Assembly (NCBI GenBank): GCA_029261715.1
Contig: JAJDAT010000025.1
Location: forward strand, 496,001 to 560,000
DNA from: Nitrospinia bacterium
GTDB lineage: Bacteria; Nitrospinota; Nitrospinia; Nitrospinales; JAJDAT01
Reading direction: 5' to 3'
DNA: 64,000 bases
A model generated the notes under the pieces. That model had not been told where the DNA came from. It did no database searches and was given only the letters and a program-made list of their open reading frames with translations. The translations under genes and the position numbers were made by a program. Within the stretch, counting starts at the first letter, position 1; each line of letters opens with the position of its first letter. Positions 282 to 50,099 of this stretch are shown piece after piece.

Positions 282-3200
282 ATGATTCGAAAACTATTTA
301 TAGGTTTTTTAATATATTTGATCGGTGGTTTTCCGACACTGGTTTATGCGTTGCCGCAAGGCGGAGAAGTGGTTTCGGGAACGGTTGGGATTAACTCTCC
401 CAACGCCAATAACATGGCCATAAACCAAGGGTCTAACCAAGCCATCGTTAATTGGCAAGGTTTCGATATTGGCAAGCAGGAATCGGTAACGATTAATCAA
501 CCTAATAGTAACTCGGTTATTCTAAACCGAGTCGTTGGCGAGAACCCCAGCGCCATTCTAGGTAAACTCTCCGCAAACGGTCAGGTTTTCTTAACCAATC
601 CTTCAGGTATTCTTTTTGGACAAGGCGCGCAAGTGAACGTCGGCGCTTTGGTTGCCAGCACGCTCAATATTTCGAATCAAGATTTTCTAGATCGTAATTA
701 TCGCTTCACTCAAGACAAAAATAAACCTTTGGCTTCGATAATTAATCTGGGCGATATCAATGCCGGTTCAGTTGGGTTACTGGCGCCACGAGTAGAAAAT
801 CGCGGAACCATTGTCGCCAGTTTGGGATCGGTCGCTATAGCGTCAGGCGAAAAAACGGCCCTAGATTTTGAAGGAGACGGGTTGATTAATTTCGAAATCA
901 CGCAACCAGTGAACGGAGAGATTCGCGATGCCGATGGTAATATTTTGCAAAGCGGCGTCATAAATTCTGGTCTGATTCAAGCCAATGGAGGCCAAGTAGT
1001 TTTGTCAGCTCTGCAAGCGCAGGGGATGATTCAGAGTGTCGTGAACAACGAAGGCATGATCGAAGCCAAGGGCGTTGAAGAACGCGATGGCAAGATTTTC
1101 TTACTGGGCGCAGATGAAATAATCAATGAAGGAACGCTAGATGTTTCCGGAGAAGAACCCGGACAAACAGGCGGAGAGATTCGTCTATTAGGTGAAAGTG
1201 TGTCCGTTAAGAGTGGGATTTTAAACGCTTCTGGTGATGCGGGTGGCGGAACCGTTTTGATCGGCGGTGACCGGCAAGGGCAAAATTCAAATATTCAAAA
1301 TGCAAAAAATACGACAGTTGCGGAGTCCGCTTCTATTAAAGCTGACGCCATAAATTCTGGTGATGGCGGCAAAATAATTGTTTGGGCAGACGATTCAACA
1401 AGTGTCCATGGAATATTATCTGCCACTGGTGGCGCTCAATCTGGTAATGGTGGGTTTGTTGAAACCTCCGGTAAAAACTCTTTAAATGTAACGAGCGCTC
1501 CAGATGTTTCTGCGAAGAATGGGAAAGCCGGAACATGGTTGTTAGACCCAACCAATATCGAAATTGTTAGCGGTCCTGGTAACGGCGACGGATCGCAAGT
1601 ATCTGTGACGACCATCGAGACGGCGCTCAATGCCGGTAGCAGTGTTCATATAATTACCAGCGGACAAGGTTTAGAAGAGGGGACGATTACGGTTTCGACA
1701 GCGATCGTTAAATCTTCTGGCGGTGATACTTCACTCACGTTAACGGCTCATGGCGATATCATCGTCAACCAATCTATTACTTCCACTAGCGGTGCATTAG
1801 CCGTTAATTTGATTTCGGGAGCTGATATTTTTGTTAACGCCGCAATCGTCACCAATGGCGGTAATTTATTAGCGGATGCTGGAGCGACCAATCTTCCCGC
1901 TAATATCTCTGGGTCTTATATGCCAGCGGCGCGGATTTCTGGCGCGGCGGTTGTGTTGCCGAAAATTGAGGTCAATGCTGACATTACGACAGGTGGCGGC
2001 AGCGTTACATTAGGTCAATTTAAAACCAAAACACATTCCTTAATTGGCGGCGGAACCTATACAAAAGAAAATATAGCTAAGGCTGATATTTTTATCAAAA
2101 ATTCTACGATAAGCACTAGTGGAGGAAATTTTAAAACTAATGGAGGTACGCTTTCGATTACTCAGCCTTCAATAATCAATACCGCAGCTGGAGATATTAC
2201 ATTTGATTCTAATATTGGAACTCCTACGTTAACTTTATCTGCTAATTCAAATAGTAACGCTAGCATCTTATTAAATTCGACGCCTTCTATTACCATCGGT
2301 TCAAACTCCACTCTTATGTCTTCAGGGGGAGATATCACGCTTACGTCTAACGCCGCCGATCTTATTGTCCTAGAGCCAGTTTTAACGATAAATATTGAAG
2401 AGGACGCTTCTATCACGACACCGGGCGGCAACATTTTGATTGACGGCGGCGATAACTCAATTGTGTTGGTAGCGGGAAACTTGAACGTATCGAACGGTAG
2501 CGGTAAAGGCGGTACAATTCAAGTTTTAGGAACCTATGTAGGAATTCAAGACGAAGCAGAGCTTGACGCATCCGGCGACGAAGGCGGTGGAACGATATTG
2601 GTCGGCGGTGATTATCAAGGTAAAAACGAAGACGTTCGAAACGCCGAGCGCGCTTTTATAGCGGCTAACGCTTCACTTAAAGCAGACGCCATAACCACAG
2701 GCAACGGCGGTAAGGTCATTCTTTGGGCAGACGATATCGCGCGTTTTTACGGTTCTATTTCGGCGCAAGGCGGCTCTATTTCCGGAGATGGTGGGTTTGT
2801 TGAAACATCTGGTAAAAATTATTTAGATGCGCAAGGGTATGTAAATACTTTGGCGGTTAATGGAAATATTGGAACTTGGTTGTTAGACCCAAAAAATATA
2901 ACGGTTACGGATGGAGGGGGAGCTGTTTTAGGAGGTGTCGACCAGTTCCTAGATTCATTTAACAGCACAATTACTATTGACGCTGCGACTATTAACGCCG
3001 CCGGGGCCAATGTTGTTTTACAAGCCAGTAACGACATAACCATCGATGAAGCGATTAGTATTTCCACCGCAGGGATTACCTTAACTTTACAAGCTGGGCG
3101 AAGCGTTTTAATAAATCAAAATATCACTACCAACAATGCTGCGTTAACCATCGTGGCAAATGAAACCGTCGCAAATGGAGTTGTAGACGCTCAAAGAGAC

Positions 3201-6200
3201 GCTGGAATTGCAGTAATCACAATGGCAGATGGAACTACCCTCAATGCTGGAACCAACAACGTGATTCTAACCATGAGTACTGGACCTACCACCAATAACA
3301 CAAGCGGCGATATTACTATTGAAAATATAATGGGCGACGACATATTTATCGATAATAATGGAACAAGCGCCGGGTCCGATATTCTCATTGCTTCTGCCGA
3401 TTCGTTAATAACTGCAACAACAGTGGCGCTTGCGGTTGATGGTACGGGTTCTTCGGTTGGGACCTCTGGTAATAGAATTAGAGTTACCGTTACCAATTTG
3501 GAAGCTATCGCGACCTCTGGCGGGGTTTTTCTCGACTCCATTGGACAAGGCCTTCAAATTGGCGCAGCGGCTCTAGGTTCTTTGACGGGTATTACCACGA
3601 CAGCCGGAGGAGAGATTAATGTTACCTCCGCAGGGACGATTAACATAGCTGATGCGATGTCTGGTTCTGCAGCTATTACGTTAGACGCCAACGGAACCAA
3701 CTCGGATATTGCTGTTAATGCGAGCATAATCACTACATCCGGCGCCATAACTCTAACGGCAGACGATAGTATTTCTGGGACTGCTGGCGGTGATATTACC
3801 GCTACTGGAACTGGAGCTTTATCCATTACTGCGAATGCCAATAGCTCTTCCGGCGGCGATGGTGGAGATGTTATCACTATGTTTGATGGAGCTGAGTGGA
3901 ATGCAGGGAGTGGACTTCTTTCCTTAACCGCGCATGGTTCAATTACCATAGGTAAATTAATAACGACTTCTACAAGCTCAACCGCTGTTGCTGTGAGTTC
4001 TTCCTCCGGAGGTATTATCGATGGAGGCGATACTGGTGGAGACGACATTGAAGGAAATTCCGGAACGGTAAACCTTACAGCCAACACGGGTATAGGTTCC
4101 GCTGGCGCTATAGAAGTTGATACCGCTATCTTAGCCGTGGATGCTAACGAATCCATCCAAGTAGCAAATGCTGGAACGTTATCAGATTTATCAATGACGC
4201 TTAATCCCGCTACTCTTACCGACTCGACTTATAGTATTACGTCCACAGGTTTGACTTTAAGTATTTCAGATTCGGCGGCAAATGTGAATATTGCCGGTTT
4301 GACTTCTACCGGTAATTTAAACTTTACGTTGGCAGTTGATACAGGAAACTTAACCACTTCAGGAGCTATTAACGTACAATCGGGGAATTTCACGGTTACC
4401 ACATCCTCTGGCAGTCAAACTTATTCCAATACGATTGCCGCTAATAACGTTACCCTTAATGCCGATGGAGCTAATTCTGATGTAAACATTAACGCGGCGA
4501 TTACAACAGCCTCTGGTGGAGCTGTGACTATAACGGCTGACGATAGCATTATTTTTGCCGCTGCAGGGGACATTACCGCAGGCGGAGCGGGAAATATTTC
4601 GGTCACGGCAAATACCAATAATGCATCCGGCGATAGTTTTAACCAGATTAGTATGAATGCGGGCACCACTATCGACGCGGGAAGTGGAACCATTACGTTT
4701 GCTTCCACCGGCATTAATGCAGGTACTTTGAACATTACTGGGTTGACTACCACTAATTCCTCAGACACAGCCGTCACTCTCAATACTAATTCCTCGATCA
4801 CCGACGCAGGCGATACAAGTGTTGATATTGTCGCTACTAACGGACGGATAGTGATGACTGCTAATATTGGAATTGGCGATTCGGGGGCAATCGAGATTAC
4901 CGCCAGCTCTATCGACGCCGTCAACTCGGTATCAAACAGTATCGCTATAGCTGAGACAGATAGTATTTCTATTCAAAGGTTAGCAAACTCCGCTTCAGGG
5001 GCAAACATTACGTTTACAGCTAATGCTGGAACGATCACTATTGCTTCTGGAGGTTCGGGCGTTACCTCAGTTAACGGGGATATCAACATAACCGCAACCG
5101 GAACAACTTCCGATCTTTTAGTGAATAAGACGATTACTTCAGGATCGGGCGGGGGGCAAATTGAGTTAAAAGCCGACGACGATATAACGCTAACTTCAGG
5201 AATTGATCTTATTACTCCTGGAACAGGCAATTTGTTTTTGGTCGCGGATAACGACACCGATAATACCGGAGCTATTTCAGGTACAGGAGAATTAAAGATG
5301 AACGGCGGCGCATTAAAACTGGTCGCTGGATCTGGAATAGGAACTTCAGGAACGACGCTGGTTTCTAAAGGTGTAACTAGCTTTGCCGCATCCACAAACT
5401 CAGGTGGAATATTTTTAACGAATACAGGAACTGCAGGCGTTGCTTTAAATGCAACTACAGTTGATAGTTTGGTTGGCGTAACGGCGACTTCTGGGGATAT
5501 TACTATTTCCAATACGAGCGGTAATTTTTCTACCGCTCAAATAGTAACGGCTACTGGCTCTACAATTACCATAAGCGCCATTAATATGTCTTTTAATTCA
5601 GGCGGAATACTTTCAAACGGAGGTGTTGATCTCAACGCAACTGGGACCTTAAATGTCTCCAATGGCGTTCAGATTATTGCAGATAATGACGCCAATGGAA
5701 CAGATACTTTATCGGTTGACGCAGTTGGTGTTACTTTGAATGGGTCGAGTTCTGGTTCGGAAAATCTTAAAAATAAAGGCGGCGGAGCAATTACTATTTC
5801 TTCCTCTGGCGATGTTTCATTGGACGACAATTCTATAGGGCTTTCAAGCGGGGGCGCATTAGCAATTCTTGCCGGTACCAACCGGGTTTTTACAACGAGT
5901 TCCACCGGTCCTCTTATAACCCTTAGTACTGGAGGAAGCCTTCGCTTGGTTGGTTCTGAAATAGGAACGTCCACAAACCCGATTTTTACCACCGGTTTGA
6001 CTAAACTAGCTGGGACCGCTACCTCTGGAGGTTTCTATTTAACTAATAATAGTATTACGGATGTGAATTCGAACACTATAGGTGGTAGTGTGGGTATTTC
6101 TGCGTCGGGGAATATTATTATTAAAAATCCTCTCGGCGGCTTTACTTTTACGGATCTTGTTTCCTCCAGTAATGGGTCAATAACTTTGGAGACTAAATTC

Positions 6201-6644
6201 AGCATAACGGATCTCAACGGCTCGGCTGGCAGTTTATCTGCGTTAAATGGAACGGTGACAGCTAAAATTAGCGACTCTGGTAGCTCTTTTGGGATTTCGA
6301 GTAACCCAATTGAGGTTTCCGCAAGAGGTTTTAATTCTGATGATGTTGTAAGTGGTGTAGTCCATGTAGCTTTTACGGATACCACGCCGAGCGAAACCAC
6401 AGAAGAAACAAACCAAAATCAAAACCAAGGCCAAAACCAAAATCAAAACCAAGACCAAAACCTACCACCTGGGGATTCAAAACCTCCTGTAGGAGGGGAG
6501 CAATTTACACCAGATAATTTGCCGCCCGACTTTGGACCTGCAACTCAAGAAACTGTTGATCGAATTAACAGAGATAATACGGCAGGGAGACAAGCTGGGT
6601 TTATTGAGGCCATTGGCGAAATTGTTAATGGTCCCGGTTGTTAA
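282..6644 (+). CDS. Two-partner-secretion exoprotein, filamentous-haemagglutinin-like
   Basis: This 2120-residue protein starts with a signal peptide (about residues 1-24, ending VYA). A TPS secretion domain follows: LPQGG at 25, NRVVGENPSAILG, and NPSGILFGQG at 106. Proteins with this domain cross the outer membrane through a TpsB (FhaC-type) partner and fold as a long beta-helix. Most of the protein is low-complexity Ser/Thr/Gly/Asn sequence with many G-x-I-x-I-T steps, which fits a beta-helix. A module of about 125 residues occurs twice (about 300-420 and 745-867), each ending GTWLLDP. A Q/N-rich linker (NQNQ repeats, bases 6410-6464) precedes a C-terminal tail ending in Cys. No TpsB gene is in the window. 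No good Shine-Dalgarno is seen, so the start is chosen by the signal peptide. A likely role is adhesion or surface coating (inference). Confidence 0.9.
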   Translation: MIRKLFIGFLIYLIGGFPTLVYALPQGGEVVSGTVGINSPNANNMAINQGSNQAIVNWQGFDIGKQESVTINQPNSNSVILNRVVGENPSAILGKLSANGQVFLTNPSGILFGQGAQVNVGALVASTLNISNQDFLDRNYRFTQDKNKPLASIINLGDINAGSVGLLAPRVENRGTIVASLGSVAIASGEKTALDFEGDGLINFEITQPVNGEIRDADGNILQSGVINSGLIQANGGQVVLSALQAQGMIQSVVNNEGMIEAKGVEERDGKIFLLGADEIINEGTLDVSGEEPGQTGGEIRLLGESVSVKSGILNASGDAGGGTVLIGGDRQGQNSNIQNAKNTTVAESASIKADAINSGDGGKIIVWADDSTSVHGILSATGGAQSGNGGFVETSGKNSLNVTSAPDVSAKNGKAGTWLLDPTNIEIVSGPGNGDGSQVSVTTIETALNAGSSVHIITSGQGLEEGTITVSTAIVKSSGGDTSLTLTAHGDIIVNQSITSTSGALAVNLISGADIFVNAAIVTNGGNLLADAGATNLPANISGSYMPAARISGAAVVLPKIEVNADITTGGGSVTLGQFKTKTHSLIGGGTYTKENIAKADIFIKNSTISTSGGNFKTNGGTLSITQPSIINTAAGDITFDSNIGTPTLTLSANSNSNASILLNSTPSITIGSNSTLMSSGGDITLTSNAADLIVLEPVLTINIEEDASITTPGGNILIDGGDNSIVLVAGNLNVSNGSGKGGTIQVLGTYVGIQDEAELDASGDEGGGTILVGGDYQGKNEDVRNAERAFIAANASLKADAITTGNGGKVILWADDIARFYGSISAQGGSISGDGGFVETSGKNYLDAQGYVNTLAVNGNIGTWLLDPKNITVTDGGGAVLGGVDQFLDSFNSTITIDAATINAAGANVVLQASNDITIDEAISISTAGITLTLQAGRSVLINQNITTNNAALTIVANETVANGVVDAQRDAGIAVITMADGTTLNAGTNNVILTMSTGPTTNNTSGDITIENIMGDDIFIDNNGTSAGSDILIASADSLITATTVALAVDGTGSSVGTSGNRIRVTVTNLEAIATSGGVFLDSIGQGLQIGAAALGSLTGITTTAGGEINVTSAGTINIADAMSGSAAITLDANGTNSDIAVNASIITTSGAITLTADDSISGTAGGDITATGTGALSITANANSSSGGDGGDVITMFDGAEWNAGSGLLSLTAHGSITIGKLITTSTSSTAVAVSSSSGGIIDGGDTGGDDIEGNSGTVNLTANTGIGSAGAIEVDTAILAVDANESIQVANAGTLSDLSMTLNPATLTDSTYSITSTGLTLSISDSAANVNIAGLTSTGNLNFTLAVDTGNLTTSGAINVQSGNFTVTTSSGSQTYSNTIAANNVTLNADGANSDVNINAAITTASGGAVTITADDSIIFAAAGDITAGGAGNISVTANTNNASGDSFNQISMNAGTTIDAGSGTITFASTGINAGTLNITGLTTTNSSDTAVTLNTNSSITDAGDTSVDIVATNGRIVMTANIGIGDSGAIEITASSIDAVNSVSNSIAIAETDSISIQRLANSASGANITFTANAGTITIASGGSGVTSVNGDINITATGTTSDLLVNKTITSGSGGGQIELKADDDITLTSGIDLITPGTGNLFLVADNDTDNTGAISGTGELKMNGGALKLVAGSGIGTSGTTLVSKGVTSFAASTNSGGIFLTNTGTAGVALNATTVDSLVGVTATSGDITISNTSGNFSTAQIVTATGSTITISAINMSFNSGGILSNGGVDLNATGTLNVSNGVQIIADNDANGTDTLSVDAVGVTLNGSSSGSENLKNKGGGAITISSSGDVSLDDNSIGLSSGGALAILAGTNRVFTTSSTGPLITLSTGGSLRLVGSEIGTSTNPIFTTGLTKLAGTATSGGFYLTNNSITDVNSNTIGGSVGISASGNIIIKNPLGGFTFTDLVSSSNGSITLETKFSITDLNGSAGSLSALNGTVTAKISDSGSSFGISSNPIEVSARGFNSDDVVSGVVHVAFTDTTPSETTEETNQNQNQGQNQNQNQDQNLPPGDSKPPVGGEQFTPDNLPPDFGPATQETVDRINRDNTAGRQAGFIEAIGEIVNGPGC
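1150..1580 (+). repeat. Exoprotein internal module, copy 1
   Basis: This encodes roughly residues 300-430 of the exoprotein. Landmarks are GGGTVLIGGDRQG at about 322, KADAI, GGKIIVWADD, GGFVETSGKN and GTWLLDPTN at 417. Copy 2 repeats the same landmarks in the same order about 447 residues later. Confidence 0.8.
2485..2920 (+). repeat. Exoprotein internal module, copy 2
   Basis: This encodes roughly residues 735-880. Landmarks are GGGTILVGGDYQG at about 769, KADAI, GGKVILWADD, GGFVETSGKN and GTWLLDPKN at 864. It matches copy 1 in order and spacing, so it is an internal duplication within the beta-helix stalk. Confidence 0.8.
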
Positions 6645-20736: not shown

Positions 20737-22449
20737 TCAGTTTATTATCCAATTTAAATTGTCGAAAAAGTTTATATGTTGGTCAATTATTAGTACGCCT
20801 TTTTTATGATTAGGTTTTGGCGGGACTAGATAAGTAGCAAACTTTGGATCTTCTCTTCTAATATGTCTTAAGGCTGTTCTAATAACCCGATTCACTCGGT
20901 TATAGGCTTTTTCTAAATCATTTCCGCGTTGAGCATATTCTTCTTCATCAGAAAAATCTTGTTCATAAGAACTAGCGATTGTCCCTCTGCTTATCAATGC
21001 GTTCTCGAAATTTGCTTCTAAGTTTAATGCCGATAAACCATTTCCAGTATTTCTAAGGAGATCGCTTATTTCGTTAGGGCTATTTTTATGGATCGCAATT
21101 AAATGGAAGATATAACTCAAGCCTTTAGTTACTGGAAGAAGGAATTGAGGTCCTTCATTAAATTTTATTTCAAAATGAGTTTGGTCTGCTGTTCGGCGAA
21201 AAATGTTTTCTTTGTTAGAGCTATTAAAATTGGGGGCAAATAGTTCAGCTAAAAGGTCGTCGTCTGAAACCCAAAGAGGTATCCCTTCGTATTGCATTAA
21301 GCTGTCTAAACTAAATAGATTCTTTTGCCATTCTTTGATTTGATCCAATAGCATTTGACTGGTCGCCAGTAAAATGCCTTCTAGTTTTGGGATCAGTTTT
21401 TCCAGATAGTTTATTTCTGCCCATAGCTTCTCTACTGTTTCGCAATAGAGGGAAATTGAAAATCGATTCATATTAAATTGGTAAAATAGGTCTTCAATGC
21501 CTCTAAGACGACTTCCAAAATCTTGATTTAAGATGTCTAGCGCTTCATATAATGAATCTAAAGTATCGTCAATTGCGTCTAGTTTGTCTGGATCAAAGTC
21601 TTTAATCTGAAAACTGTCTATTTCGTTTTCCGGAATTGATTCTTTGATACTATGCAAAATTGTTGACTTGATTTTTAGTGTCTCGCATAAAATATCGTCC
21701 TCGATAACAGTTACTTCACAAGCGGGAATTCCAAATAATCTTTCTGGTCGGTTTATTTCTTGAACGCCATGAAGAATGTTGACTACGTTTTTTTCAATCT
21801 CGACAATTGGTTGATAAAAGTTATTGGCCATTTTCCAATATTTTGAGTTTTTTCTTCCTTCTTTTAACGCCTGATAACGTTTATTTTGGTTCTCCGATTT
21901 GGATATTCCAGATACTATTTCTTGATCTGCAAATTGGTAATGTTGTTGGTATTTCAGCCTTAACTCTGAAAATGAAATTCTTATAATAAATAAGCAGACC
22001 CAGATAAAATCGCTAAAAACTAGAGAGTGATCTTCATTCTGAGTTTCTTTTAACAGAATTTTTAACCATTCAGATTTACCAAAAGTTAAATTCCAACAAC
22101 TCAGGAAATCGACAATGGGTTGATGAAGCCAAGAAGATGTAGTCTCAGATTCTTTTGTATTATTAATGAATTCAGTTTTTAATAATAAGGACTGGTAGCA
22201 AAATAATTTGAGCGTTATTAGGTTGTTAAAGCGCAATCGATGGATTTCTTGCGTAGGGTTTTCAAAAATCACTTCTTCAAAATTTTCGAACGGCTTTTTT
22301 TCTGATGAACTATTTAAACTTTCGCAGTCTTCACTTAAGAAATTAATAAAAAATTCTGGATAAGACTCAGGAATACCTTCTTGCGCTATGACGGCTATGA
22401 AGTCATTAGCGAAGTTTTTATATTTTAAAGTTTCTTGGTTTGTTTTCAT
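20737..22449 (-). CDS. Large protein of unknown function
   Basis: The 570-residue product is soluble, with no signal peptide. It is helix-rich and acidic. Leu/Glu-rich stretches in the middle (DKLDAIDDTLDSLYEALDIL; EKLWAEINYLEKLIPKLEGIL) suggest coiled coil or helical bundle. A more conserved-looking C-terminal part holds AYNRVNRVIRTALRHIRRE and HKKGVLIIDQHI. I recognise no domain. It is flanked by a terminator and by a divergent secreted protein gene. ATG at 22449 has no clear ribosome-binding site. Confidence 0.6.
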   Translation of the reverse strand: MKTNQETLKYKNFANDFIAVIAQEGIPESYPEFFINFLSEDCESLNSSSEKKPFENFEEVIFENPTQEIHRLRFNNLITLKLFCYQSLLLKTEFINNTKESETTSSWLHQPIVDFLSCWNLTFGKSEWLKILLKETQNEDHSLVFSDFIWVCLFIIRISFSELRLKYQQHYQFADQEIVSGISKSENQNKRYQALKEGRKNSKYWKMANNFYQPIVEIEKNVVNILHGVQEINRPERLFGIPACEVTVIEDDILCETLKIKSTILHSIKESIPENEIDSFQIKDFDPDKLDAIDDTLDSLYEALDILNQDFGSRLRGIEDLFYQFNMNRFSISLYCETVEKLWAEINYLEKLIPKLEGILLATSQMLLDQIKEWQKNLFSLDSLMQYEGIPLWVSDDDLLAELFAPNFNSSNKENIFRRTADQTHFEIKFNEGPQFLLPVTKGLSYIFHLIAIHKNSPNEISDLLRNTGNGLSALNLEANFENALISRGTIASSYEQDFSDEEEYAQRGNDLEKAYNRVNRVIRTALRHIRREDPKFATYLVPPKPNHKKGVLIIDQHINFFDNLNWIIN

Positions 22450-23176: not shown

Positions 23177-24889
23177 TCATTTTGAATTTGGGTTGTGAAA
23201 TTTTGAAATTCTAATTATGTGGTCCGGTTTATATTGAAATTCATACAATCTTTTTAAATAAATTGGCATGATCAATTGATAATCGTCAAGAGGAGTATCT
23301 TTTGACATAAGATTAAACTTTTGGATAACGTAAATCTCATCGATGAGATGGCCTTCTAAGTTTTTTAGTAATTCGGGCATATGGAGGTTTGCATATTCAA
23401 AATTGACTGACCCTTGATTTAAGATGCTTTGATGTCCCGGGGTATTTGTAATGACTATAAATCGAGTTTCTTTTTTGCTTTCAAAAAAGCGGTAAACTTC
23501 ATTGTTTTCTCGAATAAGATTCTGAGTGTTTACGAACTGTCCTTTAATTGCTACTGGGTGATATATTATAAAAGTGATTATTGCCATCGTTAAAAAGCAT
23601 CTAGATGAAAAGTTTGGGAAAACTTTGCATATAACTAATGGAACCAAAGAAAGGGAGAGGATAAAAACAAGAAATAATCGAGCGCTGGAAGGGTGAATGT
23701 ATCGGCCAAAAAAATGAGAAAGTACTATTGTCAAATTTATGATTAATACTATTCCCAAAACTAAAATGATTTCTTTTTTGAAAATTTCCTTTTTAACGTT
23801 TTTATTTAAAATTATTTTAATTGGAATAATTATCAAGATGGAAAGCGCAATTAAATTATAAATTGTGGCATAGGGTAGAAAAGGTTTGAAATCAATCATT
23901 CCATTTCCTAACTCAATTAAATTCTTAAAAAAATGTCTTAATGAAAATAGCGCTACGTTTTCTGGGTTCTCTCGGCTATTTGGTTTTAAAATAAATTGCC
24001 AAATAAGCGGTAAATACAGAATTGGAGTCGCCAAATATAACTTTGGAAACGCTTTCCAGTGAGAAACTTTAACAATGCGAAAACCAACAAAAATTAATAT
24101 TAAAACAATATGATAAATGAATGACTCATAACGAATATTTGAGAAAAGTATTAAATTTGCCCATAAAAAAGCAAAGTTTAAATTTGTTGGGTTTCGTAAA
24201 AAAATATAAGAAGAGAGAAGAACGATCCAAAGAAAAAAAGTTGAAAATAGATCAAATCCTGCCGATGTTGTATTTATGGTTATTATAGGTTGGGCAATTA
24301 TAATAAACATTGCCCCTATTCCGTAGAGACTATCTTTTAGCTTTTTAGCTAAGACAAATACGGAAATAAGTAGTAACCATAAAATGATTCCATTGAAGAT
24401 GAATGCATTGTAATAAGAGTATCCGAGGAAAACATGGAGAATATGCACTCCAAATGGAAACATCAGAGGGCGTTTGGGAAGTTCGTTGTTGATGGGCCAA
24501 TAGATGTCGTAATACGACTTTCCCATTGTTGTATTATAAACTGTCTTATTGAAGGCCATTGATTTTGAAACAGCCACTAGGTTTGTTTCGTCACTAAGAA
24601 TTCTAAAACCTGGTTTTACTGATAAAAAAATAAGCCCGATTAAAACAAACGCCGCCGCTATTCCTACCCAATACTCTTTGACGAAATTAGGAAGGTTAAA
24701 TTCAATTGATTTTAAGAAACTAACTAAAAAATATATCCAAACAATGACAATTACGGATATAACGTAATAGGAGCTATGTACAAAAAAAGATTCCATCAGC
24801 TTTTGATCAGCTAATGTAGCTGTGAGTAAGCCTATGAAAGTTACAAAAAATAAAGAGGAGAATAATTTGTTGTATGAAACTAATTTCAT
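23177..24889 (-). CDS. Polytopic membrane protein, GT39/PMT-like glycosyltransferase candidate
   Basis: The 570-residue protein has about 10 to 12 hydrophobic helices. The first long external loop holds RILSDETNLVAVS (D100/E101), a position like the acidic pair of PMT/ArnT-type (GT39, GT-C fold) glycosyltransferases. These use a lipid-linked sugar donor. A Tyr-rich loop (TTMGKSYYDIYWPINN) follows, and the last 100 residues form a soluble domain. This is a fold-level assignment; the donor and acceptor are unknown. It stands alone, and 24890-25426 upstream must hold its promoter. Confidence 0.65.
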   Translation of the reverse strand: MKLVSYNKLFSSLFFVTFIGLLTATLADQKLMESFFVHSSYYVISVIVIVWIYFLVSFLKSIEFNLPNFVKEYWVGIAAAFVLIGLIFLSVKPGFRILSDETNLVAVSKSMAFNKTVYNTTMGKSYYDIYWPINNELPKRPLMFPFGVHILHVFLGYSYYNAFIFNGIILWLLLISVFVLAKKLKDSLYGIGAMFIIIAQPIITINTTSAGFDLFSTFFLWIVLLSSYIFLRNPTNLNFAFLWANLILFSNIRYESFIYHIVLILIFVGFRIVKVSHWKAFPKLYLATPILYLPLIWQFILKPNSRENPENVALFSLRHFFKNLIELGNGMIDFKPFLPYATIYNLIALSILIIIPIKIILNKNVKKEIFKKEIILVLGIVLIINLTIVLSHFFGRYIHPSSARLFLVFILSLSLVPLVICKVFPNFSSRCFLTMAIITFIIYHPVAIKGQFVNTQNLIRENNEVYRFFESKKETRFIVITNTPGHQSILNQGSVNFEYANLHMPELLKNLEGHLIDEIYVIQKFNLMSKDTPLDDYQLIMPIYLKRLYEFQYKPDHIIRISKFHNPNSK

Positions 24890-25426: not shown

Positions 25427-28400
25427 ATGGTATTTCAATTCTTTAGTAGACGGGGACACCCGTTTGCGGTTTTGGGAATTGTCTTGTTCTTGGCGTTAGG
25501 AGTTTCTGGAGCATTCGCGGCTGATCATAGCCACGACGGCAAGAAACACGTAATGGCCTCGGCAGATAACCCAGAATGGATGGAAAAACTTCAAGGGCAA
25601 GTAGATCGCGAAGAAACTGAAAGCGGTCTGAAGGGAAGGAGCCAGAAGTTAGATAGTACCTTTATGAAGTTGATGGGGAAGGTAAGGCGTGAGTTAAAAG
25701 AACATGCCGCACCAGCTTCTTCAGGGGGTATGTATCACGACTCCTGGTCTGCGCATCAAATGGGACAGTCCTTTTTACTAGGGCCGACAGAAGCTTCGGC
25801 TAAAGTTCAAAGAGGGGCTCATTGTCCAAGTTCGGCTCCTGTAAAGAGCTATGATGTTTCTGCGATCAATGTAGAAATAACCCTGAATCAATGGGGGGAT
25901 TACTACCCTGGTTATATGTACGTTTTAACCAATAATATTGATGGCGTACGTAGCGATGAAAAGCAAAATGCAGCAGCTCGTGAAGATGAAAATGACCCTG
26001 GAGCGATTATTACAGGACTTCAAGGTGATTTAATCCAACCTCTAGTAATTAGAGGGAATCAAGGCGACTGCGTTCGTTTTAAAGTAAGAAACGCAGTTGA
26101 AGACGAAGATATTGGATTTCAAGTCAACGGTTCGGCAATGATTATCAGCTCTACCGGGCAACCTGCTACTGCCGCTACTCCTGGCGCGATTGTTAAACCT
26201 GGCGAAACTCAGGATTTCGAATGGTTTATTCCAATTGACGAGCAAGAAGGCGGACGAATGATCCAAAGTCATGCTGGTCGAGATCCTTCTTCTTTAGGAT
26301 TGATTGGGTCTTTTATTGTTGAACCGAAAGGTTCTACTTATTTGAGCCCGTTTAACGCTAAACCTTTGGATAGCGGTTGGGAAATGATTATTGCAAACCC
26401 TGATAGGAAAGACTTTCGTGAGTTTGTTCTTTTTTATCATGAAGTTGGCGACGAATCTTTCCGACCATTGAATCGACACGGAGAAATGATTCCTCAACGG
26501 GATCCACAAACGGACGCTTATCGACCATCCGCAAGGGCGATGAATTACCGTAGTGAACCGTTTGGTATCAATAACTTGGCTCAACAAGAACGACATTTTC
26601 ATTATGAAGATGAGTCGTTGTCATATAGTTCTTATACCTTTGGCGACGCTCCAACCACAATTCCACGTTCCTACATGGGGGACCCCGCTAAGTTTCGATT
26701 AGTTCATGGCGGCGGCGAAGTATTCCATTCGCATCATCCACATGGAGGTTCCATTCGTTGGTTACGCGCTCCAAAACGCGAGCCAGGTTTGGAAAACATG
26801 ATTACGGCAGCATGGGATGGTCCAGTTAAGTACCCAGTTGTTCGTACTACTTCCGATCGTGTTGACGTTGAAGTTATCGGTCCTTCCGAAGTAATTGATT
26901 TAGAAACGGAATGTGGATCTGGGTTATGTCAGCATTTAGCGGGCGACTTCTTATTTCACTGCCATGTAGCGCATCATTATGTTGCAGGTATGTGGGGATA
27001 TTGGAGAGTGTATAACACCTTGCAATCAGGAAACTATCCTTATGAAAGTACCGACGTAATGCCGCCTTTAGCGGAATTACCGGACAGAGAAGGCAGGATT
27101 CCTAAAGGTGTTTCTTCAGAAGAAATTGCCGGCAAAACGATGGATTGGTTCGGTAAGAAGTTTAATGTTGTCGCTTCTGGTAAAAGCGATTGGAGTACAG
27201 ATACGCCTACCGTCAACATCAAAGACTGGGTTAAGTATATGTTACCTCCTCAAGGTAAACCTGGTCATACCGATGACGAAAAAGGGCAGATTTTGGCTTA
27301 TGACGGTTCGGTTTGGGATTACGCTTGGAAAGGTAATCGAGCTTTATCCGAACGCGAATCAACTTTGATTACGCCAAAATATAAGTCTCCACATCCAGGC
27401 AAACGTCACTCGATTCTTTTTGAGCCAAATAATGGAAAGCTCGCGTGGCCGCATTTTAATCCGCATTTTGGCAAGCGCATTCCTTTTGCGCGAAACCATG
27501 GCGGAGCGCCTTGGTTAGAGCCTTTTCATATGTTGAACGATAATACCTACGCAAGCACCGAACCAGGTAGCGCGGGCATGGGGCCAAACGTAGAAAACAC
27601 GGCTCCTTCTAAACCCGGCGAACATGGTCGATGGAGTTTATGCCCATCAGGAGCAGGTAGGAAGCAGTATTCAATTCATTTTATCAACACGCCAATTGAG
27701 TTGACTCCACAAGTGGGGCCAGTAGCTCCGGTAGTTGATAAGTACGGATTGATTTATGTTCTTGAAGAAGAATTGGAAGAGAAAAAGAACGATCCGAAAA
27801 AAGCTGTTCCATTGGTTTATCGGGCAAACGTTTACGATTGTGTAGACGTAGTTCTTTCCAGTGAATGGAACGACGACGACTTCACCAATTTCCAAATGTC
27901 GAAAGTCAATATCCATCCGCATTTCTTTCAGTTTGATAACCAAGCTTCAGACGGCGTTATCTCTGGATTTTCTTATGATCAATCTATGAGATCGTATTTG
28001 CAATTTGATAAGAAACAGAAAAAGGGTAAAGACGGACACGAGCATCATGTTGGTATGCCTGTTCCTATGAACTCTAGACTTATCAGTGACGCAAAAATTG
28101 GAGCTAGATCGGTTAAGATCCAAATGGCTAAGCATTCGACTCCTTTTCATGAAGGCGCTGACGTCATGATTGGTATCGAAACGATGTCTAACAAAGAAGC
28201 TCGTTGGATTGGGTCGATGAGTCCAAAACCAAAGACTAATCCACACAACGGCGCTGTAGAAGGCGATGGAGTTTACACTCTTCATCTTACAGAGCCATTG
28301 AAGAAAGCTCACAAAAAAGGCGAGATCGTAACGACCGAGTTTGTTCGCTATCGATTGTGGGTTGACGCAGACGTTGGATTGGTTTTTTGGCATGACCATG

Positions 28401-30382
28401 CATTTGGCGCAACCACTTGGCCACATGGTGGTATCGGTTCGACTATTGTTGAACCTTGGGGTTCCACTTACCACGATCCCGTTACTGGAGAAGAAGTTCG
28501 TAGTGGGCCAGTAGTTGATGTTCATGGTTCGGAACCGGTAGCTTATGCACGAAGCGGAAGTTTCCGTGAAATCGTAGTTCAATTGCATGATACGGTTCCA
28601 CACACCGCACAATTAGTTACTGAAGGTAACCCACCAGGTATGAGCCGTGAAAATGCTATTGCTTCCGGCCAATCCATTTCTTTCCAAATGCCGGATACTA
28701 TGTTGGAATCGGCATTTCCAATGTTAAATGGAGGAACACATACTTCGGGTGGCGGTTTCAACTTTCGAGCCGCATCTTTGGCGTCTAGATTGAAAAGCAA
28801 TCCAGATCCGTCAAAAATGTTTTCTAGTATAGTTCATGGAGATCCTAGTACGCCTATGCTTCGCGCATACGTAGGGGACAACGTTATGTTCCGGTTACTT
28901 CATGGAATGATGAACGAAACTCATACTTTTGTTTTATCGGGTCATGGGTATCGTCCAGAACGTTATGATCAAGACTCACGCGTAACCAATGCAATTCATA
29001 TTGGTATCGCGGAAAGATATGACATGGCTACTACCGCTGGCGGTTATCAACAAATGGCAGGGGATTACCTCTTCCATGATGGCCGAACTTCGCATCTTGG
29101 CGAAGGTAGTTGGAGTATCTTTAGAGTTCATGATAAAGCACAGAAGGATCTGCTTCCGCTTCCAAACAACTTGGACTTTGCTAAAAAAGTGAAGACAGAA
29201 GTTTGTCCTGCGGACGCTCCGGTTAAAAACTTCAGCGTATCAGCCGTAAATAAAGGGTTGAAATTTAATCCTAATACGGAAGACGAAATTGAAGTCGATT
29301 TCGAGCGTAAGTTATTAGCCGCTAACGAGAACGGAACTATTTACGTTCTCGATAACGAGATTAGCAAAGTTTCCGATGACGGCCATATGCCTCATCCGTT
29401 GACCTTGCGTGCGAATATAGGCGATTGTGTCAAAGTTAAGTTGACCAACCGTTTAGAGTCGGGCAACGCCTCTATGCATGTTAATAACATGGCGTTTAAT
29501 CCGTTAGATTCTCAAGGTATTAATGTTGGTTATAACCCAGGCGACCAAACAGTCGCTAAAGGTAAATCCAAGACTTATACCTTTTATGCTCACCCAGATT
29601 ACTACTTAAATGGTGGATTGATCTGGGATTTTGGTAACCTCACCAGTAATGTTCGTAACGGTTTGTACGGCGGAATTATTATTGGGCCAAGAGGTTCAGT
29701 GTATCGCGATCCAGAAACGGGTAAAGACATTACCTTGGGTAATTCCTGGAAAGCGGACGTAATAGTAGATAAGTCTTATCCTGAAAACCGAGATATCGAA
29801 AACTATCGAGATTTCGCGTTGTATTTCCAGGATGAGGATAACATTCTTGGCACTTCTTTTATGCCATATCTGCAAAATGTTGCTGGTTTGACTGGGGTTA
29901 ACTATCGGTTAGAGCCATGGACTTATCGCGAAGACGAAGGTTGTGAATTAGGAAATATCTTCACTGCCTGTGTAGCCGCAGATAAAGACCCAGCAACACC
30001 AACGTTGAGAGCCCATGCTGGAGACAAAGTAATGATTAACGTCTTTGGCGGTCACAACGAGCAGAATCAAATGTTTAATCTGGATGGCCATCAATGGCGC
30101 CGTCACATCAAGCAAGAAGGTTCGGACATGATCGACGTCGAGGAATTCGGCGGAGGTGAGTATATCCAAGCCTACTTAAAAGATGGAGCGGGTGGTACCT
30201 ATCATAATCCAGGTACTTATCTTTGGTTGAACGCTCGTACGCCTTATCAGCAAGCGGGACAATGGGGTTATTTTAAAGTGTTACCTAAGGGAGACGGTTC
30301 AATTCTTCCTTTAGGAAACGTAACTCCAAAAGGCGTTAAAGCAGAGAACAACTCTGACGAGCGATTGTCTATGAACCGGTAA
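25427..30382 (+). CDS. Giant secreted multicopper oxidase with three cupredoxin modules
   Basis: The 1651-residue precursor has an export signal (SRRGHPF, hydrophobic core, AFAA) that may be Tat-type. Three related modules start at C133, C739 and C1260, each with the pattern CP-x-x-A, and contain GS-x-Y-x-DP-like steps. Four His-x-His copper sites are visible: HSHHPH at 434-439, HCHVAHHYVAGM at 511-522 (full type 1 site), HPH at 830-832 and HDH at 989-991. The first two lie late in module 1 and the others early in module 2. The trinuclear centre is therefore probably built across the module border, in the reverse order from laccases, as in large MnxG-type manganese oxidases. Module 3 has lost the ligands. 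Substrate is unknown; metal oxidation (Mn, Fe, Cu) is possible. AAGGAGG precedes the start and a strong terminator follows. Confidence 0.9.
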   Translation: MVFQFFSRRGHPFAVLGIVLFLALGVSGAFAADHSHDGKKHVMASADNPEWMEKLQGQVDREETESGLKGRSQKLDSTFMKLMGKVRRELKEHAAPASSGGMYHDSWSAHQMGQSFLLGPTEASAKVQRGAHCPSSAPVKSYDVSAINVEITLNQWGDYYPGYMYVLTNNIDGVRSDEKQNAAAREDENDPGAIITGLQGDLIQPLVIRGNQGDCVRFKVRNAVEDEDIGFQVNGSAMIISSTGQPATAATPGAIVKPGETQDFEWFIPIDEQEGGRMIQSHAGRDPSSLGLIGSFIVEPKGSTYLSPFNAKPLDSGWEMIIANPDRKDFREFVLFYHEVGDESFRPLNRHGEMIPQRDPQTDAYRPSARAMNYRSEPFGINNLAQQERHFHYEDESLSYSSYTFGDAPTTIPRSYMGDPAKFRLVHGGGEVFHSHHPHGGSIRWLRAPKREPGLENMITAAWDGPVKYPVVRTTSDRVDVEVIGPSEVIDLETECGSGLCQHLAGDFLFHCHVAHHYVAGMWGYWRVYNTLQSGNYPYESTDVMPPLAELPDREGRIPKGVSSEEIAGKTMDWFGKKFNVVASGKSDWSTDTPTVNIKDWVKYMLPPQGKPGHTDDEKGQILAYDGSVWDYAWKGNRALSERESTLITPKYKSPHPGKRHSILFEPNNGKLAWPHFNPHFGKRIPFARNHGGAPWLEPFHMLNDNTYASTEPGSAGMGPNVENTAPSKPGEHGRWSLCPSGAGRKQYSIHFINTPIELTPQVGPVAPVVDKYGLIYVLEEELEEKKNDPKKAVPLVYRANVYDCVDVVLSSEWNDDDFTNFQMSKVNIHPHFFQFDNQASDGVISGFSYDQSMRSYLQFDKKQKKGKDGHEHHVGMPVPMNSRLISDAKIGARSVKIQMAKHSTPFHEGADVMIGIETMSNKEARWIGSMSPKPKTNPHNGAVEGDGVYTLHLTEPLKKAHKKGEIVTTEFVRYRLWVDADVGLVFWHDHAFGATTWPHGGIGSTIVEPWGSTYHDPVTGEEVRSGPVVDVHGSEPVAYARSGSFREIVVQLHDTVPHTAQLVTEGNPPGMSRENAIASGQSISFQMPDTMLESAFPMLNGGTHTSGGGFNFRAASLASRLKSNPDPSKMFSSIVHGDPSTPMLRAYVGDNVMFRLLHGMMNETHTFVLSGHGYRPERYDQDSRVTNAIHIGIAERYDMATTAGGYQQMAGDYLFHDGRTSHLGEGSWSIFRVHDKAQKDLLPLPNNLDFAKKVKTEVCPADAPVKNFSVSAVNKGLKFNPNTEDEIEVDFERKLLAANENGTIYVLDNEISKVSDDGHMPHPLTLRANIGDCVKVKLTNRLESGNASMHVNNMAFNPLDSQGINVGYNPGDQTVAKGKSKTYTFYAHPDYYLNGGLIWDFGNLTSNVRNGLYGGIIIGPRGSVYRDPETGKDITLGNSWKADVIVDKSYPENRDIENYRDFALYFQDEDNILGTSFMPYLQNVAGLTGVNYRLEPWTYREDEGCELGNIFTACVAADKDPATPTLRAHAGDKVMINVFGGHNEQNQMFNLDGHQWRRHIKQEGSDMIDVEEFGGGEYIQAYLKDGAGGTYHNPGTYLWLNARTPYQQAGQWGYFKVLPKGDGSILPLGNVTPKGVKAENNSDERLSMNR

Positions 30383-30410
30383 ACGATCCGCGGTTTGTTG
30401 GACAATTTTA

Positions 30411-30441
30411 GGGGCCTCCTTGTGGAGGCCCCTTTTTTTTT
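30411..30441 (+). terminator. Intrinsic terminator of the multicopper oxidase gene
   Basis: GGGGCCTCC pairs perfectly with GGAGGCCCC around TTGT and is followed by nine T. Confidence 0.93.
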
Positions 30442-47267: not shown

Positions 47268-49178
47268 CTATTCCAAGATAAATTGAAACCAACTGGAGAT
47301 GGATTTATTAGTTCCGGTTTCGTCTGAAGAGCCGTCCCAAGCGTTGAAGGCAAAAGAATGATTTGTCCCTGGTTCAAGTTGGGTGTCTTGTGAAGAGTCT
47401 GAGTTTTCAAGTTTTCGCTTGAAGACTACTTGATACTGTCCGTATTGATAAATGGCTTTTGATTCTACCCCTTGCGATTCTTTAGCTTGAGGTTTTACGC
47501 TTCCTAAACCTTTAGCGTTTGATTCAACCACCCCAAGTGGATATGAGTTCCATTTCCAGATGTTAACGGAGTTTTCTTTATCTCCGTTTAAGAAATAAGG
47601 TTTCTCTCCGCTTCTCTTATTTTCGACAGGAAACTGAATAGCAAATGAATCTGCAAACTCCTGTGGATTGGGAGGAACAGGTTCTTTTTCTTTAGGTTCT
47701 TTCAAACCTTTTAGTTTTTCTGGAATGGGAGGAACTGGGGATTCTTTTAGAGGAATCAGTTTTTGTAGAACAGGATCGAAAGTAGGGTCGTCCCAACTCG
47801 CAAAGATCGAAATTTCAGATCCGTTATGAATCGCTTTGATTTTAACGCTTTCAACCATTGGGAAATAGGATTTATCTTGTTCAGCTACCTGTCCGCCTAA
47901 GGGGTAATAGTGAGTATCTACAGAATTCCATTTCTTATCACTAGGATCGTTTGGTAATTCCCCATCGATTCTTTTTATATGAATTAATTTGTCTGTTTTG
48001 GGTTTTTGGGGAGGAGAAAGGGTTTGGATATAATTAACGATGCTCCAAATTTGATCGTCTTTCAATAATCTTTTTGAAAATCTGGGCATTGCCGAACCAT
48101 ACAAGCCAGTCCTTAAAGTTAAAAATAGATCTTTCCTTTTTGATCCTCTTCGAAAAGTCCAAGCTTTAGTTAAATTTCTTGGCCAAATATCTCCAGAAGA
48201 GATGCTGACAATTCGATCCGACGCTTCGCCATCACTTCTGCCTTCAAAACCGTGACATCCAGAGCAATTTTCTAAATAGAGTTGACGTCCTTCTTTTACG
48301 CTGTCTAAAGAAAACGCAGGCGGTTCTGGTACTTTTACAATTTTATGTTTTCGTCCTCGCTCCATAAACTTTTCAAATTTAGGAGCTAAGGTTTTTAGAT
48401 ATAAGATTAGGCTTTTTCGGTCCGGCTCAGAAAGAACTTGCCAACCGGGCATCGTAGTGCCATCCATACCGAGAGTCAGAGTCTTAAACATATCTTCATC
48501 TGTTGGGATTTTACCGATTGGCGTGGATCTTAACTTGTATTGCCCTTTGGTTAAATTTCTTGGCGGTGGGCTTGAGTAATTTATCGTGATGCCTTTTCCA
48601 TCGCCTTTGTCGCCATGGCATTGAGTGCAGTTTTCTTGGAAAAGAGCTTTGCCGCGTTTAATGGAAGGTTTAGATTTGTTTTCGTGAATCGTCAGTAAAT
48701 AGTGAGACCTTTGATAGATATAGGCAATTACATACCAGACCTCATTTTCAGAGAGAGAGTCTTCCCACGCTGGCATTGCCGAATTCCAAGGTTCGAATTT
48801 TTTCGGTAGCCCTGGGCCGCCTTTCATTATTCTCCAAAACGCATAAGCTGGCGGTTTTTTTAGAATAGTATCTTTGCCTATAAAATTTGCGGGAGGGGGT
48901 GAGAAGCTATCGCCAAATAAACCTTTGCCATTTAATAAATCGCCATGACAGAGAAAACATTTTTTAAAATAGACTTTTGAGCCTTTTTGGAATGCTTGCT
49001 CCCCGGCTTTTCCTCTTAAAGGAAAAGGGGGCTGCAAGTTTTTTAAAGCGTATGTTTTTCCTTTAACGTCAATTTCGGCAGGCATATCCATTGCCGAGGG
49101 ACCGCTAAAGGAAAAAGCTTGAGAGCTAATAGAAAAGCAAAATAAAACGGTAAGAAAAAAGAGAGACTGTTTTGTCAT
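47268..49178 (-). CDS. Tri-haem cytochrome c with EB_dh-type haem domain
   Basis: The 636-residue precursor has a signal peptide (about 1-24) and three class I cytochrome c domains with haem motifs at C74-x2-CH, C184-x2-CH and C305-x2-CH. Likely axial Met are at 135, 243 and 364 (SAMP, TTMP, SAMP). From about 400 it has an ethylbenzene-dehydrogenase-gamma/DMSO-reductase-type haem b domain (FASWDDP, DSFAIQFP, PYFLNGDKENSVNIWKW, FAFNAWDGS). This domain is found in the gamma subunit of nitrite oxidoreductase and relatives. The Met often seen before Gly in this fold is Asn here. Periplasmic electron transfer is the expected role. It follows a cupredoxin gene by 60 bases. Confidence 0.88.
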   Translation of the reverse strand: MTKQSLFFLTVLFCFSISSQAFSFSGPSAMDMPAEIDVKGKTYALKNLQPPFPLRGKAGEQAFQKGSKVYFKKCFLCHGDLLNGKGLFGDSFSPPPANFIGKDTILKKPPAYAFWRIMKGGPGLPKKFEPWNSAMPAWEDSLSENEVWYVIAYIYQRSHYLLTIHENKSKPSIKRGKALFQENCTQCHGDKGDGKGITINYSSPPPRNLTKGQYKLRSTPIGKIPTDEDMFKTLTLGMDGTTMPGWQVLSEPDRKSLILYLKTLAPKFEKFMERGRKHKIVKVPEPPAFSLDSVKEGRQLYLENCSGCHGFEGRSDGEASDRIVSISSGDIWPRNLTKAWTFRRGSKRKDLFLTLRTGLYGSAMPRFSKRLLKDDQIWSIVNYIQTLSPPQKPKTDKLIHIKRIDGELPNDPSDKKWNSVDTHYYPLGGQVAEQDKSYFPMVESVKIKAIHNGSEISIFASWDDPTFDPVLQKLIPLKESPVPPIPEKLKGLKEPKEKEPVPPNPQEFADSFAIQFPVENKRSGEKPYFLNGDKENSVNIWKWNSYPLGVVESNAKGLGSVKPQAKESQGVESKAIYQYGQYQVVFKRKLENSDSSQDTQLEPGTNHSFAFNAWDGSSDETGTNKSISSWFQFILE

Positions 49179-49238
49179 TTTCGTTTTTTATGGAAAAGCT
49201 TTTAAAAAAGTTTTGAGCCTAGCGCTAAAAATGAACAG

Positions 49239-50099
49239 TTAAGGTTTTAAGTCGTCCTTTGTAAAAGCCTTCTTTGCTTCTTTTTTAATCCTACCAGATT
49301 TGATGGTTTCGTATAGAGGGCGAATTACTTTGTCGCCATTAAATGCAAAATCAAGGTTAATGGTCTCATTAGGGCCGATATGAATTTTTTTCTTAACCTT
49401 CTTCATCAAATAATGCCATCCGGTAATATTGTAGTCACCAGGAGGAATATTTTCGATTTTATAAGTACCATCCTTACCGGTAATTTGATTGTATGGATTT
49501 TGAACGCGGTATCCAAATGTCTGCATAAATTCATGCATTCCGCAAATCATCTGAAAAATTTTGAATTTCTTTTGAAAAGTAACTTGCCCATGAGTGATAT
49601 CTTCTGCAGGTACAGGCAGGTTTTGAATAATTTTCCCTCTTTCAGCTTGATAAACCTGGCTGTTGTGCATGACTGGGTCTACGTTATCAACTGTAAACTT
49701 GCCACCTTGGCGGACAACGCTGACGTCAGGGGTGAACTTACAGTTTTCAGACAATATATCGATTGTTTTTTCTGGAAAACTTTTTCCGGAATCTACATGG
49801 TCAATAGCAATGACCACATTCCTCATTCCCTTATTGTCGTCAGTAATGAAATCATGAACAACACGATTTTCTTCATCATCTGTATCAACCCCTTCATCTA
49901 CTTGAACCTCAGCACATAAATCTATATTTGGATATAAAACAAGATGAAAAACTCTTGGTTGGGGAGTTTTACCATCTAATATAGCGCGGCCTTGTATTGT
50001 TCCTCCATTCTGGACTTCAATTTCTTGGTAGGCCCAGGAGTTTGAGACTAGTAAAAAGAAAATAAGAAATGTGCTCAAACCCAATTTGCTCTTCAACAT
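49239..50099 (-). CDS. Secreted cupredoxin with carboxypeptidase-regulatory-like domain
   Basis: The 286-residue precursor has a signal peptide (about 1-23). The cupredoxin part carries H145 (PVMHNSQVY) and C186-x2-H189-x2-M192 (ICGMHEFM), the four ligands of a type 1 copper site. After it, TGKDGTYKIENIPPGDYNITGWH is a carboxypeptidase-regulatory-like beta sandwich. It is the first gene of the operon with the tri-haem cytochrome, so the two probably exchange electrons in the periplasm. The lysine-rich tail may help docking. Confidence 0.82.
   Translation of the reverse strand: MLKSKLGLSTFLIFFLLVSNSWAYQEIEVQNGGTIQGRAILDGKTPQPRVFHLVLYPNIDLCAEVQVDEGVDTDDEENRVVHDFITDDNKGMRNVVIAIDHVDSGKSFPEKTIDILSENCKFTPDVSVVRQGGKFTVDNVDPVMHNSQVYQAERGKIIQNLPVPAEDITHGQVTFQKKFKIFQMICGMHEFMQTFGYRVQNPYNQITGKDGTYKIENIPPGDYNITGWHYLMKKVKKKIHIGPNETINLDFAFNGDKVIRPLYETIKSGRIKKEAKKAFTKDDLKP

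Follow-up and report, generated by a model that had tools for sequence, protein, structure and literature searches.

The window, the 64,000-nucleotide stretch of DNA analysed here from a Nitrospinales bacterium (G+C about 39%), encodes at 25427-30382 on the plus strand a protein of 1651 aa, which is very likely an exported MnxG-type multicopper oxidase with six cupredoxin domains. This confidence covers the enzyme class and the architecture of the copper site. The open reading frame was found where the original prediction had placed it, and the arrangement of the six domains in three two-domain modules was recognized through Pfam, phmmer, Foldseek, and module comparison. It is most likely that the oxidase is periplasmic and connected with an amicyanin-type cupredoxin, its gene being often close to those of NXR-type cytochromes. 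In nitrite and Mn oxidisers, which are high-potential chemolithotrophs, it would consume O2, turn over Mn, or do both.

Gene structure and copper ligands

A probable Sec signal peptide, MVFQFFSRRGHPFAVLGIVLFLALGVSGAFA (25427-25522, plus strand), was read from the sequence, and thus the oxidase is probably exported. The N-terminal hydrophobic stretch is found again in orthologues. The gene is preceded by 538 bases of free sequence and followed, 28 bases past the stop codon, by a strong intrinsic terminator-like hairpin (30410-30433, plus strand; 10 pairs, 8 of them G-C, then T8), and therefore it is probably transcribed alone.

Module 1 (residues 126-735; 25802-27631, plus strand) includes domains 1 and 2 and a long linker, module 2 (residues 736-1256; 27632-29194, plus strand) includes domains 3 and 4, and module 3 (residues 1257-1651; 29195-30379, plus strand) includes domains 5 and 6; all three were delimited with blastp and hhalign. 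The homology among the modules proposed earlier was confirmed by module-to-module comparison, with blastp E-values of 1e-12 to 1e-20 and hhalign probabilities of 99.7-99.8. Pfam gave a good match for module 3 only (Cu-oxidase_3, E-value 7e-12).

Four copper motifs were recognized on the plus strand. Motif C, H434-S-H436-H437-P-H439 (26726-26743), provides the type 1 ligand H434 and the trinuclear ligands H437 and H439. Motif D, HCHVAHHYVAGM (26957-26992), provides the trinuclear ligands H511 and H513 and the type 1 ligands C512, H517, and M522. The trinuclear motifs A, H830-P-H832 (27914-27922), and B, H989-D-H991 (28391-28399), are both in module 2. Because motifs C and D are in module 1 and motifs A and B in module 2, the order in the sequence is C-D-A-B. 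H434, H439, H511, H516, H830, H832, H989, and H991 are all present at the positions originally given. The full type 1 site predicted for module 1 exists (H434, C512, H517, and M522), but the choice of H516 as a ligand was off by one: H517, in the pattern HCHxxxHxxxxM, is invariant in 76 of 76 orthologues, and H516 is seen in 75. Two His groups (H434xxH437xH439 and H511-C-H513) are found in module 1 instead of the one first counted, while the pairs H830/H832 and H989/H991 assigned to module 2 stand.

At equivalent places, modules 1, 2, and 3 read HCHVAHH, HDGRTSH (29075-29095, plus strand), and NARTPY (30230-30247, plus strand), respectively, in agreement with the original reading. The sequence comparison also agrees that module 3 lacks copper ligands. 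HDGRTSH was considered as a residual copper site and rejected because neither of its His residues is conserved; H1217 is replaced with F or Y in 75 of the 76 orthologues, and H1223 with K in 43. The ligands of this motif are considered lost. The single type 1 site is thus in domain 2, modules 2 and 3 being without one, and the eight trinuclear His residues are split between domains 2 and 3. These twelve ligands, the eight His plus H434, C512, H517, and M522, are invariant in all 76 full-length orthologues from two phyla, an invariance far beyond chance. Ten of the 11 Cys residues constitute five conserved pairs (133/215, 496/501, 739/805, 1260/1334, and 1506/1515). C512 is the sole Cys without an obvious partner, as would be expected if it serves as type 1 ligand of a protein that is exported.

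Based on the ligand identity and homology, we infer copper loading, the geometry of the cluster, and the direction of electron flow. The electron donor would give up its electrons singly to the type 1 copper of domain 2 (H434, C512, H517, and M522). The electrons would cross the His-Cys-His bridge to the trinuclear copper cluster at the interface of domains 2 and 3, bound by H437, H439, H511, and H513 from one side and by H830, H832, H989, and H991 from the other, and O2 would be reduced to water there. Domains 1 and 4-6 would be structural. This route from donor to water is considered highly probable. The AlphaFold model of residues 125-1250, built with 45 sequences, reached a pLDDT of 71.9 and a pTM of 0.70, with a pLDDT below 50 in the core of domain 2 (H434-M522). 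In view of this weakly predicted core, the geometry of the cluster is deduced from the homology to the MnxG structure 9bxa.

In six-domain oxidases, three two-domain modules form a ring, in which the interfaces 2/3, 4/5, and 6/1 are equivalent. The trinuclear site is at the interface 6/1 in ceruloplasmin. The domain order described as reversed in the original prediction corresponds to the ceruloplasmin arrangement moved to another interface (2/3), and it is shifted rather than functionally reversed.

Remnants of metal-binding motifs are observed in domain 1 of the relatives. Both His pairs, corresponding to motifs A and B, are kept in domain 1 of the Manganitrophus-type Nitrospirota (9 sequences), only the first pair is kept in most Nitrospira, and neither is kept in Nitrospinota (0 of 32 sequences). 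Domain 6 of the relatives examined contains neither motif C nor motif D that could partner such a half-site. What is left in domain 1 of the relatives is a decaying half-site that has no partner, in agreement with the residual ligands mentioned for six-domain oxidases (PMC3600357). The decay series illustrates how a six-domain oxidase may settle on one of three possible trinuclear interfaces. The orphan HIHG and HSH motif pairs in domain 1 of the orthologues from loci L066-L075 could represent a vestigial or re-used metal half-site.

Distribution and gene neighbourhood

Orthologues are 72-77% identical to the window oxidase in Nitrospinaceae/Nitrospina, 53-56% in Nitrospira, and 50-61% in Ca. 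Manganitrophus and related Nitrospirota. An anammox bacterium as the source, suggested by the G+C content, was rejected because the related contigs belong to Nitrospinaceae/Nitrospina. In the phylogenetic tree, Nitrospinota copies nest beside those of Manganitrophus-type Nitrospirota, and a long branch, which carries long-branch warnings, leads to the relatives from Streptomyces and a haloarchaeon, Priestia MnxG, and McoA-like relatives. The tree covers McoA-like relatives (from contig C30, Indioceanicola, and Methylobacterium) rather than named MofA or McoA sequences, and these relatives fall outside the window oxidase clade under the same warning.

The oxidase was found from 35 of 36 Nitrospinales genomes, often in two or three copies. 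Among six genomes of Nitrospinota outside Nitrospinales, one contains an oxidase fragment and the rest have none. In the sample of 88 Nitrospirota genomes, those with canonical NxrB, defined as 94% identity or more, all encode the oxidase (17/17), versus 11 of the 71 others (Fisher p 3.5e-11, a value that ignores relatedness, nitrite-oxidising Nitrospira being close kin). None of the six Nitrospirota genomes with only a distant NxrB-like protein has the oxidase. NxrB was not detectable in the Ca. Manganitrophus genome, which contains several oxidase copies.

The genome of the window includes a second copy of the oxidase (contig C4, 87% identical) and a distant third oxidase. The latter is a six-domain protein of 1787 aa, encoded at 151123-156291 of contig C30 (7034-12397 of locus L035, minus strand). 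A histidine kinase encoded near it is related to the histidine kinase beside the window oxidase. In Nitrospinaceae OFTM191 (loci L042 and L037; contig C44 of genome G050), three tandem oxidase copies are observed with cupredoxin and rubrerythrin genes between them.

The gene order in relatives and at the contig C4 copy is HtrA-type protease, oxidase, and cupredoxin protein. In relatives, the cupredoxin gene is often followed by rubrerythrin and another copy of the oxidase, and rubrerythrin is situated between tandem oxidase copies in several Nitrospinota. The gene for the cupredoxin protein is next to that of the oxidase in Nitrospinota, Nitrospira, and Ca. Manganitrophus. At the window copy, the immediate partner genes seen at contig C4 and in relatives are not beside the oxidase.

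A member of the cupredoxin partner family is nevertheless encoded in the window at 49239-50099 on the minus strand, with an amicyanin-type loop (H145, C186, H189, and M192) and a C-terminal carboxypeptidase-regulatory-like domain. The loop C-x-x-H-x-x-M and the upstream His are conserved in 114-115 of 116 relatives. The predicted structure is confident (pLDDT 91.9), and the protein matches amicyanin, an amicyanin-loop CuA chimera, and the purple cupredoxin of Nitrosopumilus. Adjoining this gene is that of an NxrC-like triheme cytochrome c with an ethylbenzene-dehydrogenase-type (EB_dh) domain (47268-49178, minus strand), homologues of which were found near the oxidase in 11 Nitrospinota loci. 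The cytochrome and the cupredoxin (47268-50099) resemble an electron-transfer pair of the NXR type that is not part of any NXR operon.

One of the N. moscoviensis oxidase copies lies downstream of nxrB, which does not apply to the window copy. A lack of NXR in this genome was considered and ruled out: NxrB and possible NxrA fragments are present exactly at contig ends, at the ends of C22 and C47 and at the start of C32. Similar short Nxr fragments are seen in relatives, and thus NXR repeats were probably left out of the assembly.

Elsewhere in the window, a two-partner secretion exoprotein of 2120 aa with an N-terminal TPS secretion domain is encoded at 282-6644. On the 5' side of the oxidase, two unrelated proteins of 570 aa each are encoded at 20737-22449 and 23177-24889, neither with a Pfam match. 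The protein at 23177-24889 appears to be a membrane protein of the polytopic type and might be a glycosyltransferase.

Candidate electron donors

The candidate donors are Mn(II) and the cupredoxin; activity data for members of this oxidase subfamily were not found in the literature searched. The constant cupredoxin neighbour and, among the sampled Nitrospirota, the perfect co-occurrence with canonical NxrB lead to a concrete hypothesis on the electron donor, and the cupredoxin, linked to the respiratory chain, is put slightly ahead of Mn(II). Marine (Nitrospinota) and soil or fresh-water (Nitrospira) nitrite oxidisers carry several copies of this very large, strongly conserved oxidase.

The protein may be a side oxidase that receives electrons from the amicyanin-type cupredoxin and NXR-type cytochromes and offers nitrite (or Mn) oxidation an electron outlet in the periplasm. 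This is tentatively suggested by a cupredoxin with a complete type 1 site adjoining the oxidase across two phyla, by the triheme/EB_dh cytochrome near the oxidase in the 11 Nitrospinota loci, by the association with canonical NxrB, and by two NXR loci: the N. moscoviensis copy downstream of nxrB, and the N. gracilis oxidase reported within the NXR cluster (PMC3578206). However, a soluble periplasmic oxidase would not conserve proton-motive energy, the oxidase is present in Ca. Manganitrophus although NxrB was not detectable there, and gene neighbourhood does not equal interaction.

The possibility that the protein is a manganese oxidase proper, like MnxG, is a somewhat doubtful one. It would convert Mn(II) to Mn(III)/(IV), for Mn detoxification or for Mn(III)-based protection against reactive oxygen species, as hypothesized by Luecker et al. 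(2013). MnxG is the closest solved relative, several copies are present in Ca. Manganitrophus, where NxrB was not detectable, and the rubrerythrin genes between tandem copies in several Nitrospinota are consistent with this role. On the other hand, the identity to MnxG is about 20-27% across a long separating branch, the score against the NCBIfam MnxG model is 103 bits versus a cut-off of 3100, and MnxE/MnxF were not found in the loci searched. The oxidase is universal in nitrite oxidisers, and for Mn(II) oxidation in Manganitrophaceae, the authors prefer Cyc2 and a porin-cytochrome complex (PMC9040806).

A further step would be that the oxidase, the amicyanin-type cupredoxin, and the triheme/EB_dh cytochrome constitute one periplasmic electron-transfer module, a hallmark of nitrite- and Mn-oxidising chemolithoautotrophs in two phyla, which exchanges electrons with the respiratory chain rather than simply burning Mn(II) with O2. 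This is speculative and rather improbable at present. If it is true, the orphan motif A and B His pairs in domain 1 of the Manganitrophus-type relatives might be a second metal site.

A metallo-oxidase for metal tolerance, acting on copper (Cu(I)) as CueO or on iron (Fe(II)) as ceruloplasmin, is unlikely. Ceruloplasmin is among the six-domain relatives, and some distant homologues are near copC/copD or metal P-type ATPases on plasmids, but no copper-resistance genes are beside the oxidase in the Nitrospinota or Nitrospirota loci read, and a near-universal presence in multiple copies would not be expected of a facultative resistance gene. The loss of ligands from module 3 might suggest that the protein is a non-enzymatic relic or that its His motifs arose by chance, but this is contradicted by the conservation of the twelve ligands in 76 orthologues from two phyla and is extremely improbable.

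Comparison with known six-domain oxidases

The ligand layout of the window oxidase could be confirmed, but it is not new to this enzyme class. That the last part of module 1 and the first part of module 2 share the ligands, as originally proposed, is backed by the structure of MnxG in PDB and by the literature (PMC3600357). In a phylogeny published in 2013, all bacterial six-domain oxidases examined have the trinuclear ligands in domains 2 and 3, as does Chlamydomonas Fox1, and the sole mononuclear site of the bacterial proteins is in domain 2 (PMC3600357). The view that the layout is unusual finds no support, as the C-D-A-B order recurs in other six-domain oxidases: those of Bacillus/Priestia (MnxG), a haloarchaeon, Streptomyces, two alphaproteobacteria, and Hymenobacter (a Bacteroidota plasmid), and the contig C30 oxidase of the same genome.

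The closest relative with a solved structure is MnxG of Bacillus sp. PL-12 (PDB 9bxa, the H340A variant), with E-values of 2.4e-93 with phmmer and 2.6e-123 in a profile search. 9bxa is also the top Foldseek match (E-value 3.9e-46), the next ones being ceruloplasmin, factors V/VIII, and two-domain laccases. Like the window oxidase, 9bxa and its Priestia homologues consist of six cupredoxin domains in three modules, which match module by module, with the type 1 site in domain 2 and the trinuclear ligands in domains 2 and 3. The differences are also clear. Besides the low identity and the long branch, MnxG is shorter (1217-1228 aa versus 1651 aa), and its motifs are more closely spaced, with 184 residues from D to A and 44 from A to B in Priestia MnxG versus 308 and 157 in the window oxidase. 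The C496/C501 pair, conserved in the window oxidase family, is missing from MnxG, and the gene neighbours are unlike. Searches of the open reading frames of the window and related loci for Priestia-like MnxE/MnxF gave no match, with sensitivity limited for such short proteins. The MnxG-type NCBIfam model NF041487 (1894 positions, a Pseudomonas-like length) scores the window oxidase at 102.7 bits, significant but weak against the cut-off of 3100; the two belong to the same superfamily, and by this score the window oxidase is not an MnxG equivalog. The contig C30 oxidase is far closer to this model (E-value 7e-97).

Ceruloplasmin likewise has six cupredoxin domains, and its trinuclear site is also shared by an even-numbered and an odd-numbered domain, but these are domains 6 and 1, and the number of type 1 sites is higher. 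Fox1 shares the use of domains 2 and 3 with the window oxidase.

An MnxG-like multicopper oxidase was described from Nitrospina gracilis and Nitrospira, in the NXR region or cluster, with a proposed role in countering oxygen radicals by means of Mn(III) (Luecker et al. 2013, PMC3578206). Two novel multicopper oxidases were reported from every Manganitrophaceae genome (PMC9040806). Matched by their descriptions, the oxidase of Nitrospina gracilis and Nitrospira defluvii and the two from Manganitrophaceae very probably belong to the same family as the window oxidase. The presence of the oxidase in Nitrospina, Nitrospira, and Ca. Manganitrophaceae had thus already been noted. Unlike these published proteins, the oxidase of the window represents an additional copy that lacks the operon partners, and it comes from a Nitrospinales genome of 5.3 Mb. 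The present analysis adds the link to NxrB in 17 of 17 genomes, the cupredoxin as the usual neighbour, the triheme cytochrome often nearby, and the decaying half-site in domain 1.
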